Origin: Roseivirga echinicomitans
GTDB taxonomy: Bacteria; Bacteroidota; Bacteroidia; Cytophagales; Cyclobacteriaceae
DNA: 64,000 bases
Direction: 5' to 3'
Assembly: GCF_001592935.1 (NCBI RefSeq)
Contig: NZ_LRDB01000002.1
Location: 62,001-126,000, forward strand
This document shows, piece after piece, positions 2,824 through 43,762 of this stretch. The position numbers were made by a program, and so were the translations under genes. The notes beneath the pieces were generated by a model. It saw only the letters and a program-made list of their open reading frames with translations. It had not been told where the DNA came from and made no database searches. Numbering within the stretch: position 1 is the first letter of the stretch; every line of letters starts with the position of its first letter.

Positions 2824-3737
2824 TGGTCTAATTTTTTAGTAAGGTTTAAGAAGATGGCTTCGAGGGTTTCCTCAGTAGATTTAAGCTGATAGACTTCGAT
2901 ATCGTTTTGCACCAAAGCTTTGTTGATTTTTGAGATATCAGTTTTGTCAGAGATTGGCAACGTTATGGTTTTACTGTCATGCTCAGAGATGGTATAATTC
3001 AACTCCTTGATTACTTCGATTGCCTTTTGAACGTTGTCGAGCTTAATTTCTAAAAACTGACCAGAGTCGTTGCTATGAAGTCCATCGAGTTTGCCTTCAT
3101 ACATGATTTTACCTTGGTCGATAATGGCTACATCGGTGGCCATTTTTTCGATTTCAGTAAGAATATGGCTCGAAAGGAAAATCGTTTTACCATGTTCTTT
3201 ATTCAAGCGCATAATCAATTCGCGCATTTCGATAATGCCACTCGGGTCAAGCCCGTTCGTGGGTTCGTCTAAAATGAGCAGATCAGGGTCGCTGATGAGG
3301 GCAGAAGCAAGCCCCAGTCTTTGGCACATGCCTAAGGAATAGTTCTTGGCTTTTTTATTTGCGTTATCCGTCAGTCGAACGATTTTAAGCACTTCGTCAA
3401 TTCTAGATTTTGGAGCACCAATCATCCGTCTGACTACCTCAAGGTTTTGTCGACCAGTAAGGTGTTTGTAGATAGAAGGATTTTCAATCAGTGCGCCTAC
3501 TTTACCTAGTAATTCTACTTTGTTGGGAAGAAGTTCTTTGTTGAACAATTTTACTTGCCCCGGTTTGGAATGGAAAAGATCGAGTAGAATTCTTATGGTG
3601 GTAGTTTTACCTGCTCCATTCGGCCCCAAGAAACCATAAATGCTACCTTCGGGCACATTTAGATTCACCTGATCCAATGCTTTAAAGCTGCCGAAATGGA
3701 AGGTTAAGTTGTTGGTTTGAATAATTGATTTTGGCAT
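2820..3737 (-). CDS. ABC transporter ATP-binding protein
   Basis: 305 aa. Walker A GPNGAGKTT (residues 38-46), signature region SLGMCQR (134-140, the usual SxGM form of this export subfamily) and Walker B LLILDEPTNGLD (153-164) are intact, so it should hydrolyse ATP. The C-terminal 90 residues form the extra domain common in NatA/CcmA-like ATPases. It drives the adjacent ABC-2 permease (4-bp overlap). The gene is divergent from the LytS-type kinase at 3916, so this transporter could be a target of that system; this is inference only. Confidence 0.9.
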   Translation of the reverse strand: MPKSIIQTNNLTFHFGSFKALDQVNLNVPEGSIYGFLGPNGAGKTTTIRILLDLFHSKPGQVKLFNKELLPNKVELLGKVGALIENPSIYKHLTGRQNLEVVRRMIGAPKSRIDEVLKIVRLTDNANKKAKNYSLGMCQRLGLASALISDPDLLILDEPTNGLDPSGIIEMRELIMRLNKEHGKTIFLSSHILTEIEKMATDVAIIDQGKIMYEGKLDGLHSNDSGQFLEIKLDNVQKAIEVIKELNYTISEHDSKTITLPISDKTDISKINKALVQNDIEVYQLKSTEETLEAIFLNLTKKLDQ

Positions 3738-34024: not shown

Positions 34025-35551
34025 TTAGCGACCTACTTCATCAATCAGTTCTCCATTTTCATACATTTCTATTCTGATAAGTTTCCCATTTTTCGCATAG
34101 ATACTCCAACCACCTTCTTTAATGCCATTGATTAATTCACCAACACTTAATTTTCGACCCTTTTCGTCAAAGAATATCCAGTCCCCATTAGGGAGGCCTT
34201 TTTTGTAAGGCCCCTCGGAAAATTTAGTGCCATCAGGATAATAACTGGTTTTTTTGCCTTCTCCATTTATCAATGATCCAGAACTGTGTTTGTCGCCATC
34301 ATCGTCAGTGAATTCAGATACTTTAATAAGTTTACCTTTCTCATAAGTTTCTTCTAACATTGGTGAGCCATCTTCATGGAAGTATCCCCATAATCCATCC
34401 TTTTCACCACCCAAATAACTTCCTATTGAGGAAAGGTTTCCACCTTCGTGGTAAGTAAACCATTGTCCTTGTTGTTTGCCTAATCGGTAATCGCCCTCGG
34501 AGGTGAGTTTGCCTGTCGGACTAAAGCTTTTCCAGTTTCCAACTCTTTGGTCACTTTTGTAGCTGCCGAATTCTGAAATCATGCCGTTCTCATGGTAGTA
34601 TTTCCAAACGCCTTCTTTAAGGCCTAAATTGAATTCTCCAGTTTCGGCAATTACTTTATTATCATAATAAGCGATAAAAGTGCTGTCTATAAATCCAAGG
34701 CGATATCGACTTTCACTGGCAACTTGGCCACTTGGATACCACTCCTTTGATATGCCCACGGGTTTATCGTCAGCGTAAGTGATCTCGCTGGCCTTTCTTC
34801 CTGAATCATGGTAGGTTGTCCAGGTGCCAACTTTCTTACCATTATCATAATATTCCTTAATTGAGGGAGATAACTCACTGAATTCATAATAGAGCCATTC
34901 TCCATTTCTTTCGCCATAAACAAATTGACCTTTTTCTATCACGACAGTGCCATCATATTTAACCCAATTACCATTAAGATAACCGTCTTTATAGTTGGTG
35001 TCAATCATTAATGAGCCATAAGGGTCGTACTGCTCAAATGAGCCATCAAGCTTCCCTTTTTTATATTGACTTCTAATCTGAAGTACACCGTTGTCGTAGT
35101 AGCTATTCCATGTGCCCGTTTTTAGTCCTTCCTCAAAGTCACCTTTTTCATAGGTCTTCCCTGAGCCATAGTAGGAAGACCATGTGCCATTAAGCTTTCC
35201 CTTTGAGTAGTTTGTGATGACTGTCGATTTCCCTTCTTCGTTGAAAAGTACATAGGCCCCATTTAAGGAGCCGTTATCATATTTGAGTCTGGCCCTTTCT
35301 TGTCGGTCAAGAAAGATCATCCAAATACCAGCTTTTTTTCCTTCAACATAGTATCCTCTCTGAAGAAAGCTACTATCAGAATTATACATTGTCCAAAGAC
35401 CATCGCGCTTACCTTCTTTTGTTTTACCTTCTTTCGTCAAGGATGGATCATCGGAAGGGAATATAAGTTCATAGCCTTCCTCTTGGGCAATGCCCGAAAA
35501 ACTTAGAGTAATGAAGAAAAGGCTAGAAAGTATTAATTGATGAAAGCGCAT
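34025..35551 (-). CDS. Exported MORN-repeat (YwqK-like) protein
   Basis: 508 aa from the ATG at 35551, giving a signal peptide (MRFHQLILSSLFFITLSFSG); an earlier frame start at 35587 is less likely. Almost the whole mature protein is about 18-20 MORN-type repeats of about 23 residues (GLWTMYNSDSSFLQRGYYVEG pattern: W-x-x-Y-x-x-x-G-x-x-x-x-x-G). Such proteins are often called toxin-antitoxin YwqK antitoxins by automatic annotation, but the long repeat array suggests a surface scaffold. No partner toxin is adjacent. Confidence 0.85.
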   Translation of the reverse strand: MRFHQLILSSLFFITLSFSGIAQEEGYELIFPSDDPSLTKEGKTKEGKRDGLWTMYNSDSSFLQRGYYVEGKKAGIWMIFLDRQERARLKYDNGSLNGAYVLFNEEGKSTVITNYSKGKLNGTWSSYYGSGKTYEKGDFEEGLKTGTWNSYYDNGVLQIRSQYKKGKLDGSFEQYDPYGSLMIDTNYKDGYLNGNWVKYDGTVVIEKGQFVYGERNGEWLYYEFSELSPSIKEYYDNGKKVGTWTTYHDSGRKASEITYADDKPVGISKEWYPSGQVASESRYRLGFIDSTFIAYYDNKVIAETGEFNLGLKEGVWKYYHENGMISEFGSYKSDQRVGNWKSFSPTGKLTSEGDYRLGKQQGQWFTYHEGGNLSSIGSYLGGEKDGLWGYFHEDGSPMLEETYEKGKLIKVSEFTDDDGDKHSSGSLINGEGKKTSYYPDGTKFSEGPYKKGLPNGDWIFFDEKGRKLSVGELINGIKEGGWSIYAKNGKLIRIEMYENGELIDEVGR

Positions 35552-35833
35552 AGAACGTATATCGGATTGCATGCAATTGAGTTTCATAAAAAATGATTCG
35601 GATCTTCCTTCTCAAATATTACGCCAATAAAGCCCAAATCATTGTGCTATTTGATGTCTTTCAATAAACATTCTAAAGCATTAATTTAATTAGGTAATAG
35701 CAATGCTTAAATTACCCTCATATTGGATGCTCTTAGGCTAATCAGTTAACAGTTAAAGGTGTATTTGGTTCAAAATACTGGAATGTAATTGTTGCTGAAA
35801 AAAAGGCGATGAAAATATAACAATTTACCCGTC

Positions 35834-36832
35834 CTACCAACGGATTAGCGCTGAAGCCCATGTGAAGCCACTTCCGAATGCGGCCAAGCAGATCAAGTCT
35901 CCTTCTTTAATCTTACCCTGCTCCCAAGCCTCACTTAAGGCAATTGGAATTGAGGCAGCTGTTGTATTTCCATAATGCATAATGTTATTAAACACTTTCT
36001 CATCAGGCATATTTAGCTGCTTCTGTACGTAGTTACTGATCCTTAAGTTAGCCTGATGCGGCACCAAAAGGTCAATGTCTTCTGGTTGTAGATTGTTTGC
36101 AGCCAAAGCTTCTGCGATTACCTCACTAAAACGAACCACAGCATGTTTGAATACTGCGTTTCCGTTCATGGTGAGATGAAAAGTAGGTCCTTCTATTAAT
36201 TCGGTTGAAAGCCTAATCGTTCTACTGCTACCAGGGTCTTTAACGTATAGTTCCTCCGCAAAATCACCATCGGCATGAAGATGAGTAGATAGTATTCCGC
36301 CTTCAGTTGGTTCAGATGCTTTTAGTACAGCTGCTCCAGCTCCATCTGCGAAAATGACAGCACTTGACCTTCCTGCTGTAGATTTGTCAATTGCTGAAGA
36401 TTGAATTTCGGCCCCAACCACTAAAATGGTTTTGTACATTCGAGTTTTAATAAATTGGTCGGCAACAGAGAGTGCATAGATAAACCCGCTACATGCGTTT
36501 CTGATATCTAGCGCACCGATGCCTTGAAGTCCAAGTTCTCTTTGCATCAACACACCCGATCCTGGGAAAAAATAATCAGGAGTAATAGTAGCGAATACAA
36601 TGAAGTCCACTTCACTGACATCGGTTTGAGCTCTTTCAAGCGCCATTTTTGCAGCTTTAGTGGCCATATTGGATACTGTATCTGTTTCTGGGTCGAACCA
36701 CCTTCGCTCTTCAATGCCCGTTCGTTCTATGATCCATTCATTATTGGTGTCGATTATTTTTTCGAGGTCTTTATTTGTAACAATGTTTTTTGGTACGTAA
36801 TGACCTAAACCAACAATTCGGGAACTCTTCAT
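35834..36832 (-). CDS. fabH: 3-oxoacyl-ACP synthase III
   Basis: 332 aa. Catalytic triad visible: Cys114 in RNACSGF, His in VPHQANLRI and Asn in YGNTTAASIP. It condenses an acyl-CoA primer with malonyl-ACP to start fatty-acid chains; in Bacteroidota this often uses branched primers. Stands alone between the MORN gene and the divergent lipoprotein gene. A paralogue role in a secondary pathway cannot be excluded. Confidence 0.92.
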   Translation of the reverse strand: MKSSRIVGLGHYVPKNIVTNKDLEKIIDTNNEWIIERTGIEERRWFDPETDTVSNMATKAAKMALERAQTDVSEVDFIVFATITPDYFFPGSGVLMQRELGLQGIGALDIRNACSGFIYALSVADQFIKTRMYKTILVVGAEIQSSAIDKSTAGRSSAVIFADGAGAAVLKASEPTEGGILSTHLHADGDFAEELYVKDPGSSRTIRLSTELIEGPTFHLTMNGNAVFKHAVVRFSEVIAEALAANNLQPEDIDLLVPHQANLRISNYVQKQLNMPDEKVFNNIMHYGNTTAASIPIALSEAWEQGKIKEGDLICLAAFGSGFTWASALIRW

Positions 36833-37043
36833 GGCAATGTTATTTATGGATACAAAGTAAAGAAATATCCGATAGTTCTATATTGTTTCTGAAAGCTTCC
36901 TTCTTTAAAGCGGAATAAGGCCACTCATCATAGCATTTGTTGTCCTACTCAGTTCAAAGGAATTTATTCGGCCACCCAAGTAATGGAAGTAACCAATTGG
37001 AGGCAATAGCGTAATGGCTTACGGAAGAATTGAATTGTGTAAA

Positions 37044-37790
37044 ATGATAAGAATTAATCCAAGCGTATTTTTGGCGCTGGCGTGGGTAATGGCTTCTTCG
37101 AGTTGTTCGGTGAATGAACCAACAGCCCAACAGATATTGAATTCGGCCATTCAAAAACACGGATACAAATCGAGTGAGGCGCTTGAAATTCAATTTGATT
37201 TCCGAGGTAATCATTACAATGCCAGAATCTCTGATAAAGGAGATGTATACAAACGTATTTCCCATGAAAATGGAAATGAATTAGAAGATATATTAACTTC
37301 TAATACCTATATAAGAAGAGTTAACCAGAAAGAGGTTAAGGTGATAGAAGATTCACTCTCAAATGTATTAGCAGGTGATACTAGGTCCGTAGTCTATTTT
37401 GCTTTGTTGCCATATGGGACTAACCGTGAGGCAATGAGTAAACACCTTATGCCCTCTATTAAAATAAAAGATGAATCTTATTATAAGGTAGAAGTAACTT
37501 ATGGTAAGAATGGAGGGGGGAAAAATTTTGAAAATATATTTGTGTATTGGGTAAACCAAAATACACATACGATCGATTACTTGGCCTATAGCTACTATAT
37601 TAATGGTGGAGGGGTGAGGTTCCGTGAAGCATACAATCGAAGAGAGGTGAACGGGGTACTGTTTCAAGATTATATCAATTACACCATCGATAGTGACTTC
37701 CCAGCCCATGAATTGGATTATGCTTTCCAAACCAATCAATTGAGAGAGATATCAAGAATTGACCTTGAGAACATTCAAGTAATTCGGTAA
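37044..37790 (+). CDS. Predicted lipoprotein, DUF6503-like
   Basis: 248 aa from the ATG at 37044 (an in-frame ATG at 37014 would add ten residues before the signal). Lipobox MASSSC at about Cys21. The N-terminal AIQKHGYKSSEALEIQFDFRG and later aromatic beta-strands resemble DUF6503, a group of Bacteroidota envelope proteins of unknown function with an LolA-like curved sheet. It is convergent with the SRAP-like gene and shares no operon. Confidence 0.65.
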   Translation: MIRINPSVFLALAWVMASSSCSVNEPTAQQILNSAIQKHGYKSSEALEIQFDFRGNHYNARISDKGDVYKRISHENGNELEDILTSNTYIRRVNQKEVKVIEDSLSNVLAGDTRSVVYFALLPYGTNREAMSKHLMPSIKIKDESYYKVEVTYGKNGGGKNFENIFVYWVNQNTHTIDYLAYSYYINGGGVRFREAYNRREVNGVLFQDYINYTIDSDFPAHELDYAFQTNQLREISRIDLENIQVIR

Positions 37791-37806: not shown

Positions 37807-38505
37807 TTAACCAAACAAGGTGAAACTCCCGAATTGATTGGCTGGGGGGGCTTTCTTGAAAAGTTCTGGGCCATCAAATTCTGGATTGTTTATTTTTGGA
37901 GTGATTGAGTAGCGGTCTAACGCCTTTTCACGATAGGGGGTAATGAAGTTAATTATGCTCTCTTCCGTATTGGACTCGTTCAGCCAATCTGTCATCAAAT
38001 CACTATTGAGTATGGCGGGCATTTCGTTTGAAATGTCTTCCACATCTGAATTGGCCTTTGTCGTAATCATCATGAAAGTATGAATAGATACTCCATTTTC
38101 ATCTTCAAACTCATCCCACAGTCCAGCAATACCAAAAGGGCTATTGTCAACCAAATGAAAACGGTAAGGCACTTTCTCTTTCTTTGATATATGCTTCCAC
38201 GCGTAAAAACCATCAGCAATAATTACACAGCGCTGAGATTTTAGATTTTTCCTCAGACTGGCTTTGTTTAATATCTGATCTACTGGAGCAAATATTAATT
38301 TTTCACTAATGCTATTTTTTTTGACAAATGCAGGATTGATTCCCCAATAGAAAAATGAAAGTCCATCTGGGCTTTCTGCTGTGATTACAGGAAGTAATTT
38401 AGTGGGTGAAGCATTATATTTTTGTGCATACTGCCCAGTGACTTCTACATTGAAATACTCTTCAATAACTTTAGCAGAACTGGCAATCGAATAGCTGGAT
38501 GGCAT
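37807..38505 (-). CDS. SRAP-fold (YedK/HMCES-like) protein lacking catalytic residues
   Basis: 232 aa with the SRAP fold: YSIASSAKVIEEYF (N-terminal), NASPTKLLPVI with conserved Asn31, YWGINPAF, ADGFYAW and EMPAIL. Active members start MCGR because Cys2 is the nucleophile that crosslinks to abasic DNA; here residues 2-4 are Pro-Ser-Ser. The conserved Glu of GFYEW is Ala102 and the His of IHxRMP is Ser159 (Arg also lost, Glu161). DNA-abasic-site crosslinking should be impossible; DNA binding may remain. This is probably a diverged paralogue. Confidence 0.85.
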   Translation of the reverse strand: MPSSYSIASSAKVIEEYFNVEVTGQYAQKYNASPTKLLPVITAESPDGLSFFYWGINPAFVKKNSISEKLIFAPVDQILNKASLRKNLKSQRCVIIADGFYAWKHISKKEKVPYRFHLVDNSPFGIAGLWDEFEDENGVSIHTFMMITTKANSDVEDISNEMPAILNSDLMTDWLNESNTEESIINFITPYREKALDRYSITPKINNPEFDGPELFKKAPPANQFGSFTLFG

Positions 38506-38708: not shown

Positions 38709-39320
38709 ATGGCAGAAATCGTTAGGATGCCGAAAATGAGCGACACCATGGAAGAAGGGGTGATCGCTGTTTGGCATAAAAAAATAGGTGATAAAGTAGA
38801 ATCAGGTGAGTTAATGGCTGAAATCGAGACCGATAAAGCGACCATGGACTACGAATCATATAATGAAGGAACCGTATTATACCTTGGCGCTGAAGAAGGT
38901 GAGGCTGTTCAAATCAATGGTATTTTAGCCATTGTAGGAGAAAAGGGAGAGGATTATAAGGCACTTCTGAATGAGTCAAGTGAAAATGGCTCCGAAATTA
39001 AAGAAGAAAAACCAGTGGAAGAGAAAAAAACTGAAGCGATTGATACGAGTAACATAAAAGCGGAAGTGGTGAGAATGCCAAAAATGAGCGACACCATGGA
39101 AGAAGGGGTTATTTCGGCTTGGCATAAAAAGGTGGGGGATACAGTAGAATCAGGTGAACTGATGGCTGAAATCGAAACCGATAAAGCGACCATGGAATAC
39201 GAGTCATATAATGACGGAACTGTATTATACCTTGGCGCCAAAGAAGGAGAGTCTGTAGCTGTAAATGGTGTTTTGGCTGTTGTTGGTGAAAAGGGCGCTG
39301 ACTATGAGACGCTTTTGAAA
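38709..39320 (+). repeat. Intragenic direct repeat encoding tandem lipoyl domains
   Basis: DNA from 38709 to about 38972 is repeated with few changes from 39057 to about 39320 (348-bp offset). Stretches such as GACACCATGGAAGAAGGGGT and GATAAAGCGACCATGGA are identical. The encoded domains differ at only a few residues, pointing to recent duplication or gene conversion. Confidence 0.85.
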
Positions 39321-40337
39321 GCTGAAGGTCAATCTGGAGACACATCTGAACCGACCAAGGAAGAAACAACCGAAGCCGCTCCAAAGCAGGAGGTTGCCGC
39401 ATCTAAGAAAGAAGAAGTTTCGGCACCCGCTGAAACAAATAATAACGGAAGAATTAAAGCGTCTCCTTTGGCCAAGCGTTTGGCAGAAGAAAAAGGAATC
39501 AATATTGCTGAAGTGAAAGGTTCTGGAGATGGCGGAAGAATTATAAAAAGAGACGTTGAGGAGTTTGTTCCTGCTAAAACTACTGAGCAAGCTAAACCAG
39601 CTGCTGGTAAACCAACATCAGCACCAGCTGTGGAGCTACCTAAGATTGTAGGAGAAGAGAGCTTTGAAGAATTTAAAGTGTCTCAAATGCGAAAAACAAT
39701 CGCGAAGCGTTTGGCTGAAAGTAAATTTACTGCTCCTCACTTCTACCTTACCATGGAAATCAATATGGACAAGGCCATTGAAGCAAGGGTGAGCATGAAT
39801 GAGGTTTCTCCAGTGAAGATTTCATTTAATGATATGGTAATTAAAGCAGCAGCAGCAGCTTTAAGAAAACACCCTCAGGTGAATTCATCTTGGTTGGGAG
39901 ATAAGATCAGAATCAACCACCATATCCATATTGGAGTAGCAGTTGCTGTTGAAGATGGTTTGTTAGTGCCTGTAGTGAGGTTTGCTGATAATAAGCCACT
40001 TTCGCACATTGCGGCTGAAGTGAAACAACTAGGTGCTAAGGCAAAGAATAAAGAATTGCAGCCTGCTGAATGGGAAGGAAATACCTTTACCATTTCTAAT
40101 TTAGGGATGTTTGGTATTGAAGAATTTACTGCCATAATCAATCCGCCAGATGCCTGTATTATGGCTGTTGGTGGAATCAAGCAAACGGCAATCGTTAAAG
40201 ATGATCAGTTGGTTATTGGGAACATCATGAAAGTAACAATGTCATGCGACCACAGGGTTGTTGATGGCGCAGTTGGCTCTGCCTTTTTACAAACCTTTAA
40301 ATCTTTATTAGAAGACCCAGTAAGGTTGCTGGTTTAG
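38709..40337 (+). CDS. pdhC: Dihydrolipoamide acetyltransferase (E2) of pyruvate dehydrogenase
   Basis: 542 aa. Two lipoyl domains (1-88 and 117-204), each with the lipoylated Lys in EIETDKATM, are followed by a Glu/Lys-rich linker, a peripheral subunit-binding domain (about 245-285; [20 protein letters not shown]) and the catalytic domain with the His motif SCDHRVVDG near the C-terminus. It transfers acetyl groups from pyruvate to CoA in the PDH core. E1 and E3 genes are not in this window. A promoter lies upstream and a terminator follows. Confidence 0.94.
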
Positions 40338-40386: not shown

Positions 40387-40932
40387 ATGAACATGACCAA
40401 AATTAGATCAACCACCGTATTAGCGGTAAAACATAATGGTTCAATTTCAATTGGGGCTGACGGGCAAGCTACGATGGGAAATACCGTAGCTAAGAGTAAT
40501 GTAAAGAAGATCAGAAAGCTTCAGAATGGTAAGATAGTGACGGGCTTTGCCGGGTCAACTGCCGATGCTTTCACCTTATTGGAAAGGTTTGATGAAAAAT
40601 TAAGTGCTTACGGGGGCAATATGAAGAGGGCCGCAATTGAATTGGCGAAAGATTGGCGTACCGATCGTTACTTAAGAAAACTTGAGTCCATGCTGATTGT
40701 AGCCGATAAGGATGATATTCTCATCTTATCTGGGACAGGTGATGTTCTGGAGCCAGATAACGGTATTGCGGCTATAGGTTCTGGGAGTATGTATGCTCAA
40801 GCTGCTGCTCAGGCGCTGAAAACTCATGCCAAGGATCTAAACAGCTATGAAATTGTTGAAGAGAGCCTTAAAATAGCTGCTGACATCTGTATATATACAA
40901 ACCACAATTTGATTATAGAGAAAATTTCTTAA
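40387..40932 (+). CDS. hslV: ATP-dependent protease proteolytic subunit HslV
   Basis: 181 aa (an alternative ATG at 40393 removes two residues). Pro-peptide MNMTKIRS, then the catalytic N-terminal nucleophile in [10 protein letters not shown], followed by [10 protein letters not shown] and [14 protein letters not shown], which are diagnostic. HslV forms a dodecamer with the HslU ATPase; hslU is absent from this window. It begins directly after the pdhC terminator. Confidence 0.95.
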
Positions 40933-41734: not shown

Positions 41735-43642
41735 TCAATTCTTTGGTTCTAACCAAGCCTTTCTCAATTTGAGCTGAGCTGGAGTAGCATTCTCATCAAA
41801 GGCCAATGTAAGGGCTATAGGCACATCGATTTGTTGGTTAGGCGCAGTAAGTGTCATTTCTTTAGGCTCGCCATCTACGGCCCTAATTACTGTTACGCTC
41901 ATAGTTTCTAGTTCTGGGATTTTCTGAAATTGTCCGCCTAAGAAGTTATTGATTTCTGGACCAAGCTCTGGAAGCTCGTCTCCGTTCATTTTCAAGATGA
42001 TATCACCGTTTTGTAATCCAAGCGCTTTGCCCATAGCATCGAGTTTATCTTGATTACCAATCGCCAACATTCTTTTTCCATTGTATTCGGCTGCGGCTAT
42101 GCTTTCTTGACTGATGATTAATGAATATTGCTTTGTTGTACCGCCTTCAATCATATTTACACCAACTTCGGCCAATACTTCTTCATAGTTGATGGGGGTG
42201 TTCCCTGCTACATAAGTGTTCAAAAATTCACCAACTTCCGGGTAGGTCATGGCTACTATCTCACTGAACAATTTATCGTCTTGAAAAGACTTCTCCATAC
42301 CGTATTTTTTAGATAGCCCAGCCATCATGTCTTGTACACCATAAGCGCCATCAGAAAGCTTTCTAAGCTTGATATCTAAAGCCATTCCAATTAAGGCACC
42401 TTTCATGTACACATTGTAGTATTGGTCCGCATAGGTGTCTAAAGCGCCAAGGCTCAATTCAGTAAAAGGTAAATCATCTTTGAATTGCGCAGAAGTGAGG
42501 ATCTTTTCTCTTAACATGTCCAAGTATTCATCAGGGCTGACCAAGTCGTATTTTACTTGAACACTCCCCGCGAAATATTCCGTCATGCCTTCGTACATCC
42601 AAAGATGACGCGACATTTTAGGGTCGTTAAAATCGAAACTTCCAATTTCTTCAGAATGAATGGTCAATGGAGTTACTATATGAAAGAACTCATGTGCCGC
42701 AAAGTCACGTAACTGTTGATTCATTTGTTGAATGGTTTGCTCAGGCATAAAATAGAGTGAGCTGAATGAATGCTCGAGTGCTCCATAAGAAACTACTGGC
42801 TGATCTGTAAAGTAGAAAATGAAGGCATACTTCTCAACAGGTAATTTCCCGCCTAAGAATGTACTCTGTGCCGCCAATACTTCTTTGATACTGGTTGCAA
42901 TTTCTTTAGCAGTTACCTTGTTGTTAGGAGAGTAGCTGGCAACTAGTACTTCTGTATTGGCTACTTTAATCACTGCTGTATCAGCCTTGCTGTACATTAA
43001 TGGAGAGTCCACCAAGCGATCATAATCTGACACTTCGAATCTGTCAACTGTACTGTTTACATCAGGAGTAATGAAATCTCGCTTTCTTAATGATCGGCTT
43101 AAGCTTGTATTTGTGGCTTCTGCTTTTAAACCAGTAGCACCATAAAAATTCTTAGGGCGAATGATATTAAGCTCGAAGGTTTCTTTTTTCATTCCTTCAA
43201 AGTAACCGAAGAAACCGCTTGTGTTTAAAAGGAAGTTTTCTCCTTCCGCAATGTTGGTTCCTGCAGGTTGGAATATCTCAGCGCCCTCTTTCGGGTTGTC
43301 GTAAGTATCATCCACCCAATAGCTTATTTTGGCTATTTTCTTTGCATTGCTGATTTTCCAAGTGTTGTCATCAAGCCTTTTAACGAGAAGCGCATTTCCT
43401 TTTTTATCGAAGGCTTCAAAATCAGATACCATACGACCATAGTCTGCAATGGCGTAAGTGCCAGGAATGATTTTGGGTAGATAGAAAATGATTTCGTCTT
43501 GTTTGATTTTTGGAGGAGCAAGCTCTACAAGTACTCTATCGTCTGACACACGGGTAAGATCAATAACATACTTGTATGGGGTCGCTGCCCATGTGAGTGT
43601 TGTGAATAGGAGACCTAAACAGATAAATTTGAGTTTGTTCAT
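41735..43642 (-). CDS. M61-family metallopeptidase with PDZ domain
   Basis: 635 aa from the ATG at 43642 (signal peptide MNKLKFICLGLLFTTLTWA); the frame opens at 43684. Zinc motif HEFFH (His317-His321) with the third ligand Glu in WMYEGMTEYF. The N-terminal region is the M61 beta-domain (VELAPPKIKQDEIIFYLPK), and a PDZ domain follows the catalytic one (about 500-600; LGLQNGDIILKMNGDEL). Family members are glycyl aminopeptidases; this one is probably periplasmic. Monocistronic. Confidence 0.92.
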   Translation of the reverse strand: MNKLKFICLGLLFTTLTWAATPYKYVIDLTRVSDDRVLVELAPPKIKQDEIIFYLPKIIPGTYAIADYGRMVSDFEAFDKKGNALLVKRLDDNTWKISNAKKIAKISYWVDDTYDNPKEGAEIFQPAGTNIAEGENFLLNTSGFFGYFEGMKKETFELNIIRPKNFYGATGLKAEATNTSLSRSLRKRDFITPDVNSTVDRFEVSDYDRLVDSPLMYSKADTAVIKVANTEVLVASYSPNNKVTAKEIATSIKEVLAAQSTFLGGKLPVEKYAFIFYFTDQPVVSYGALEHSFSSLYFMPEQTIQQMNQQLRDFAAHEFFHIVTPLTIHSEEIGSFDFNDPKMSRHLWMYEGMTEYFAGSVQVKYDLVSPDEYLDMLREKILTSAQFKDDLPFTELSLGALDTYADQYYNVYMKGALIGMALDIKLRKLSDGAYGVQDMMAGLSKKYGMEKSFQDDKLFSEIVAMTYPEVGEFLNTYVAGNTPINYEEVLAEVGVNMIEGGTTKQYSLIISQESIAAAEYNGKRMLAIGNQDKLDAMGKALGLQNGDIILKMNGDELPELGPEINNFLGGQFQKIPELETMSVTVIRAVDGEPKEMTLTAPNQQIDVPIALTLAFDENATPAQLKLRKAWLEPKN

Positions 43643-43762
43643 AATGTTGAATTTGAATACCAGAAGTTTGACATGCTCTGGCATTGATTTATGTTATAAC
43701 TGCAATATTAATGCTATTGTGTAAATGTTAAACGCGAAAAGTACGGGTTTAGAGTACAAGGC

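Follow-up and report, generated by a model that had tools for sequence, protein, structure and literature searches.

The window analyzed here, a 64,000-nucleotide stretch of Roseivirga DNA, carries an SRAP-fold gene whose full-length product lacks Cys2, Glu and His, the residues of the crosslinking chemistry by which SRAP proteins are usually described. This loss, which a preliminary description of the DNA had reported, is confirmed by the translation and by an alignment with orthologues. Pro2, Ala102 and Ser159 occupy the positions of Cys2, Glu105 and His160 of YedK; at the aligned positions, two canonical orthologues (L006 and L056) have Cys2, the Glu of GF[YF]EWK and the His of IHDRMP. The gene is a selected, decatalyzed orthologue of a DNA-repair protein, one among many in its family. 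Coordinates are collected in the table.

Table. Features of the SRAP-fold gene and its recurrent neighbors, in window coordinates
Feature	Position	Strand	Remarks
SRAP-fold gene	37807..38505	-	232 codons plus stop; catalytic residues lost
Codon 2, Pro replacing the nucleophile Cys2	38500..38502	-	Translation, orthologue alignment
Codons 72-74, Phe-Ala-Pro replacing Asn-Ala-Arg of the INARAET motif	38284..38292	-	Translation, alignment
Codon 102, Ala replacing the catalytic Glu	38200..38202	-	Translation, alignment
Codon 159, Ser replacing the catalytic His	38029..38031	-	Translation, alignment
C-terminal tail, residues 223-232 (NQFGSFTLFG)	37810..37839	-	Clade-conserved; predicted disordered; proposed docking motif
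fabH (beta-ketoacyl-ACP synthase III)	35834..36832	-	Recurrent neighbor marking the ancestral locus; outside the mechanism
aceF (pyruvate dehydrogenase E2)	38709..40337	+	Recurrent neighbor marking the ancestral locus; outside the mechanism
hslV	40387..40932	+	Recurrent neighbor marking the ancestral locus; outside the mechanism

The translation begins MPSSYSI and contains YNASPT (with Asn31), KLIFAPVDQ, DGFYAWK (Ala102) and ISNEMP (Ser159). Further residues are also replaced: the INARAET motif has become IFAPVDQ, with Phe and Pro in place of its Asn and Arg (columns 72 and 74), Ser replaces Arg4, and Glu replaces Arg161, which is the Arg of HDRMP. Hence none of the hallmarks of a YedK/HMCES-type crosslinking enzyme (Cys2, Glu and His, the INARAET Asn/Arg) is found in the protein, which has a net charge of -6 and a pI of 5.2. 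The fold, on the other hand, is retained together with Asn31, as the preliminary description had also stated. The protein matches the Pfam SRAP profile (PF02586) with 161.7 bits, against a curated cut-off of 27.1, over profile positions 4-214 of 214, and an AlphaFold2 model based on an alignment of 30 sequences has a mean pLDDT of 87.5 and a pTM of 0.87. Foldseek gave 21 matches to this model at E <= 0.001, all of them HMCES, YedK or structural-genomics entries. Three of these structures (2f20, 1zn6 and 2bdv) were also retrieved by sequence search, where the closest relatives of solved structure were BT_1218 (2f20) and HMCES and YedK entries. The whole-domain profile match and the SRAP fold place the protein in the SRAP superfamily by descent.

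Loss of these residues is widespread among the protein's relatives. We collected 184 distinct closed ORFs of at least 190 aa from 233 profile hits in loci L001-L237, the genomes and loci having been selected in part for their resemblance to degenerate copies, in part for spread over genera. From this set, a clade of 140 distinct sequences was picked by the pattern of the C-terminal tail, which makes the tail count inside the clade (134 of 140) circular. At least one of Cys, Glu and His is lost in 114 of the 140 sampled members, a figure that is no census, canonical genera being under-sampled. All three residues are kept in 26 members and lost in 87, so a clade substituted at these very positions, which the preliminary description had proposed to look for, does exist. 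The remaining 27 are mixed: 12 keep Cys only, five His only and five Glu only, while three have lost just Cys and two just His. The replacements vary at each site (I, P, L, S, V, Q, G, F, Y or T at position 2; A, L, D, V, I, G and others at the Glu position; T, S, Q, G, N, Y and others at the His position). Neither Glu nor His is lost in any of the 44 SRAPs that lack the clade tail, and all 44 have an in-frame MC start.

Two trees, both computed with the trait columns excluded, were used to count changes of state. A quick tree of 130 rows (one per 80% identity cluster, plus 14 of the 44 outside SRAPs) requires 13, 12 and 11 changes for Cys, Glu and His, respectively; a careful tree of 62 rows, hand-chosen from those 130, requires 6, 10 and 10. 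On the latter, the canonical/non-canonical distinction needs about seven changes, at least three of which are forced by starred (strong) branches, and a single change was seen in 0% of 200 bootstrap trees. Such counts are directionless by themselves; all 14 outgroup rows are canonical. The catalytic residues have apparently been lost several separate times in the family, and in differing orders.

The clade is centered on one family; among 392 genomes drawn from across the phylum, scores drop from 317 bits inside that family to 237 bits and lower outside it. A long branch, L045, comes from another family of the order; this tail-bearing SRAP is partly dead (Cys kept, Glu replaced by Ile, His by Gln), and the same genome also holds a canonical tail-less SRAP (L002). 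We considered a phage origin and rejected it, as one scan of viral_contigs with the clade alignment yielded 94 relatives, of which 80 were kept, with at most 35% identity in the best segment and hence no near viral relative.

What the substitutions would do to activity can be gauged from YedK. According to PMC9436759, YedK crosslinks AP sites through Cys2 with Glu105 and His160, the N-terminal amine of Cys2 attacking first and the thiol then closing the thiazolidine. The same study reports that C2A, which behaves as a lyase, yields no stable crosslink, that E105A and E105Q are severely impaired and E105D only modestly so, that H160A is at least tenfold slower, and that E105Q in the C2A background cuts lyase activity 25-fold (PMC9436759). 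By analogy, the window protein, with Pro2, Ala102 and Ser159, is expected to be inactive or nearly so, and would neither crosslink nor cleave AP sites.

The C-terminal tail, unlike the catalytic columns, is conserved. Its sequence, given in the table, corresponds to DQFGNx[ST]LFx in most of the clade. Among 73 dead representatives, G226, L230 and F231 never vary, and Q224 and N227 hardly ever do; columns 2, 102 and 159 rank 149th, 181st and 152nd in conservation among the 232. AlphaFold2 assigns residues 221-230 a mean pLDDT of 51 and residues 231-232 one of 35, values obtained with only 7 of the 30 alignment rows bearing the tail. A short, conserved and seemingly disordered C-terminus of this kind suggests a docking motif.

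The beta sliding clamp is a candidate partner. The clamp-binding consensus is QL[SD]LF. The corresponding residues are SFTLF in the window protein, with Ser at the first position, and N[LYF][ST]LF in most of the clade; Leu-Phe is invariant, and Gln comes first in 0 of the 140 members. Outside the clade, [QN]xxLF C-termini occur on 11 of 44 SRAPs versus 3 of 645 neighboring proteins, a contrast that is descriptive because many of the SRAPs are related. The 11 are catalytic SRAPs (L005, L013, L017, L018, L036, L049, L212, L213, L218, L219 and L230), with ends such as QLSLF (L017), QLDLF (L018), QGSLF (L005) and NNTLF (L212), and these C-termini, several of them a perfect QLSLF or QLDLF, suggest clamp tethering of catalytic SRAPs too. 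Among the three neighboring proteins is one that its motif marks as a DinB-like polymerase, ending in QLKLF. It is encoded in L194 from position 3039 onward (+), about 2.3 kb from the dead SRAP gene, and L194 was the only one of the 140 loci in which that motif found a DinB-like neighbor.

Within the source genome, the two Y-family polymerases served as positive controls for a clamp-type motif: both carry Gln-first motifs, QLTIDF at the C-terminus in one and QINLF internally in the other. The replicative polymerase and a second PolC-like protein (L235, L236) have no LF-type C-terminus and hence provide no positive control. A search of the same genome with the tail pattern gave three forward and three reverse matches, as did the reversed control (3 + 3); none of the five matches besides the window gene closes an open frame of more than 39 residues, and no second tail protein was found. 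Of 73 distinct viral SRAPs, a single one has an LF end, so such a tail is not general. This rarity, the missing first Gln of the clade and the Gln-first motifs of the genome's own Y-family polymerases speak against the clamp reading; clamp binding by the tail is a plausible hypothesis.

The explanation we favor, tentatively and with a little less than even confidence, is that the protein serves as a scaffold with an SRAP fold, acting non-covalently and anchored through its tail to some factor of replication or repair, of which the beta sliding clamp is the likeliest. An SRAP orthologue would have lost its abasic-site chemistry and retained its fold as a scaffold; the flexible C-terminal tail would dock this scaffold onto the partner; and the docked protein would act without covalent crosslinking, as a passive shield, a competitor or an adaptor. 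A broader proposition, which we regard as more doubtful, is that, within the family, the chemistry of the chromosomal SRAP was turned off several times independently, the fold being kept with a clamp-docking tail, so that the lasting function at the fork would be non-covalent and crosslinking dispensable. If this is true, the non-covalent role of SRAPs at the fork would be clamp-tethered occupancy or an adaptor function.

Among the alternatives, the one that survives best is that the SRAP groove continues to protect single-stranded or damaged DNA by binding it, with no crosslink formed and the tail playing a secondary part. We consider this unlikely, if far from negligible. The fold is kept, and R92, K104, K108, K109, N31, P34 and W54 are conserved in the 73 dead representatives; the retained R92, K104, K108 and K109 could mediate DNA binding. 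Moreover, Arg4 is kept in 118 and Arg161 in 93 of the 140 clade members, including many dead ones outside Roseivirga. In Roseivirga itself, however, the INARAET motif and Arg4 are gone from 19 of 19 copies, which form one starred clade in the trees and all have Pro74, and Arg161 is lost in the window protein. Median net charge falls from 0 in the 26 canonical clade members to -4 in the 87 fully dead ones and -9 in the 19 Roseivirga copies. Given this acidic shift and the missing Asn/Arg motif, strong DNA binding is less likely in the genus. The preliminary description had offered binding of single-stranded DNA without crosslinking as a possible function; that suggestion is weakened by the lost motif and the acidic proteins, while the four retained basic residues could still point to it.

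Residual chemistry has also to be weighed. In Fpg/Nei, an N-terminal Pro serves as the nucleophile, and the window protein could likewise be a weak AP lyase, its Pro amine, exposed by removal of Met, attacking AP sites to form a Schiff base. The initial attack by the N-terminal amine in YedK and the lyase activity of C2A fit this idea, as does the occurrence of Pro2 in 9 of the 19 Roseivirga copies and, with Glu and His, in L107 and L117. The other 10 Roseivirga copies, however, have Gln (five) or Leu (five) at position 2, where Met is expected to stay, and the window protein has Ala in place of the Glu, a position at which even substitution by Gln costs YedK C2A most of its lyase activity. 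We therefore rate this possibility as rather improbable for the window protein. Better candidates for a Pro-amine lyase are L107 and L117, along with the three Roseivirga copies that combine Pro2 with Asp102 (L024, L032 and L034). Three members of the same family, L107, L117 and L105 (genera g45, g15 and g47), have lost only Cys2 (to Pro, Pro and Ser) and keep Glu and His; as natural analogues of YedK C2A/C2S, they are candidate AP lyases.

That the fold was co-opted for another enzymatic activity, relying on a new set of active-site residues, seems less probable again. Some polar residues (N31, C93, K104, K108 and K109) are highly conserved in dead members, which could favor this reading, but four of them (N31, C93, K104 and K108) also belong to the best-conserved residues of canonical members, so no new function is needed to explain them, and the replaced sites are filled by many different residues.

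The gene's surroundings bear on its ancestry. In sister genera, the canonical SRAP gene lies in the arrangement fabH / SRAP / aceF / hslV, and the window gene occupies the same locus. The dead gene thus sits where the canonical gene sits, which makes it a vertically inherited, decatalyzed SRAP orthologue of the family rather than an extra paralogue. By ORF clustering, a fabH-like ORF occurs around 70 of the 140 clade loci (69 of the 70 members on the same strand, downstream), an aceF-like ORF around 60 and hslV around 43 (both on the opposite strand, upstream); these side labels are wrong for short overlaps. When counts are restricted to the 79 of 140 loci of at least 5 kb, a fabH- or aceF-like neighbor is present at all 6 canonical loci, at 37 of the 55 that are fully dead and at 9 of the 18 mixed ones. 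Another recurrent ORF, which we take to be alpha/beta-hydrolase-like, lies near the SRAP gene in 83 of the 140 loci, on the same strand, with a median gap of 4 bases and mostly labeled upstream; co-transcription of the two in those genera is possible. Elsewhere in the window, 34025-35587 (-) encodes repeats that weakly match the LIC20035 adhesin model (124.9 bits, below the cut-off of 250), and a 649-aa ORF at 41735-43684 (-) has no NCBIfam match at E <= 0.001.

Comparison with other SRAPs of the same genome, also proposed in the preliminary description, showed that the source genome (99.96% complete, 52 contigs) contains a single SRAP match. With this and the same-locus orthology, we rejected for the source genome a specialized paralogue beside a canonical copy. 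Across the 19 genomes of the genus, 11 (the source genome included) have one match and eight have two. Three of the second copies were read (L016, L020 and L049); each starts in frame with MC and retains Glu and His. In those eight genomes, the degenerate protein might in principle regulate, as had been suggested earlier, or else partner with a separate catalytic SRAP of the cell. But a search at E <= 0.001 found no second match in the source genome or in 10 other genomes of the genus, and this role is highly improbable for the window protein.

Errors of annotation or assembly do not account for these observations. The in-frame stretch from the ATG back to the preceding stop comprises six codons (ISKKFN), with no Cys and no alternative MC start; a mis-set start, one way in which the preliminary description could have failed, was thus rejected. 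A degenerate copy with an intact frame is present in each of the 19 genus genomes, and the nearest named relatives, R. ehrenbergii and R. seohaensis, hold copies 89% identical to the window protein, which excludes chance or an assembly error.

The intact frame had been taken as a sign of selection, and substitution rates bear this out. NG86 dN/dS for the window gene is 0.032 against R. ehrenbergii and 0.036 against R. seohaensis, inside the range of four neighboring genes in the same comparison (fabH, 0.013-0.015; hslV, 0.010-0.014; aceF, 0.069-0.076; the convergent gene at 37014-37790, 0.033-0.038). Close Roseivirga pairs give SRAP values of about 0.02-0.05, and the median is 0.041 over eight dead pairs, including one outlier (0.346), versus 0.056 over six canonical pairs. 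One caveat here is that these values are rough because dS is high in most pairs, saturated or failed pairs having been dropped. Tail codons differ synonymously between species, with residues unchanged. At the level of sequence, then, repeated loss under purifying selection is demonstrated. Decay toward a pseudogene, which the loss of the catalytic residues and DNA-contact motif, the many different replacements and the 0.346 outlier (L169/L170) might suggest, is the least likely reading of all, given the frame intact in 19 of 19 genomes, dN/dS of about 0.03 and low across several species, and synonymous tail differences; we rejected it.

Syntenic orthology with the canonical enzyme, recurring loss and the conserved C-terminal tail go beyond the preliminary description. 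Among the matches listed in a search of open-licence literature, no paper dealt with recurrent SRAP catalytic loss or bacterial SRAP clamp tethering. The clade amounts to a natural separation-of-function experiment, in which canonical, single-loss and fully dead orthologues sharing the tail can be compared for a non-crosslinking role, and with [QN]xxLF ends on 11 of the 44 outside SRAPs, the idea that bacterial SRAPs are tethered to the clamp can be tested directly.

The window protein shares the SRAP fold with E. coli YedK (Foldseek E of about 1e-16; TM of 0.69-0.77, normalized to query length), but YedK is a Cys2/Glu105/His160 crosslinker, whereas the window protein lacks all three residues and has a conserved C-terminal tail. 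BT_1218 of Bacteroides thetaiotaomicron (2f20), the best solved-structure match by both sequence and fold, differs in keeping the Glu motif (GYFEWRH) and is only about 25% identical. The canonical orthologues (L006, L008, L056, L067 and others) have the same length, locus and DQFGNx[ST]LF tail, but keep Cys2, Glu, His and INA[RK]. The SRAP domain of human HMCES likewise shares the fold and, unlike the window protein, is catalytic. HMCES uses a C-terminal motif to bind PCNA, which parallels the docking proposed here for the tail of the window protein.
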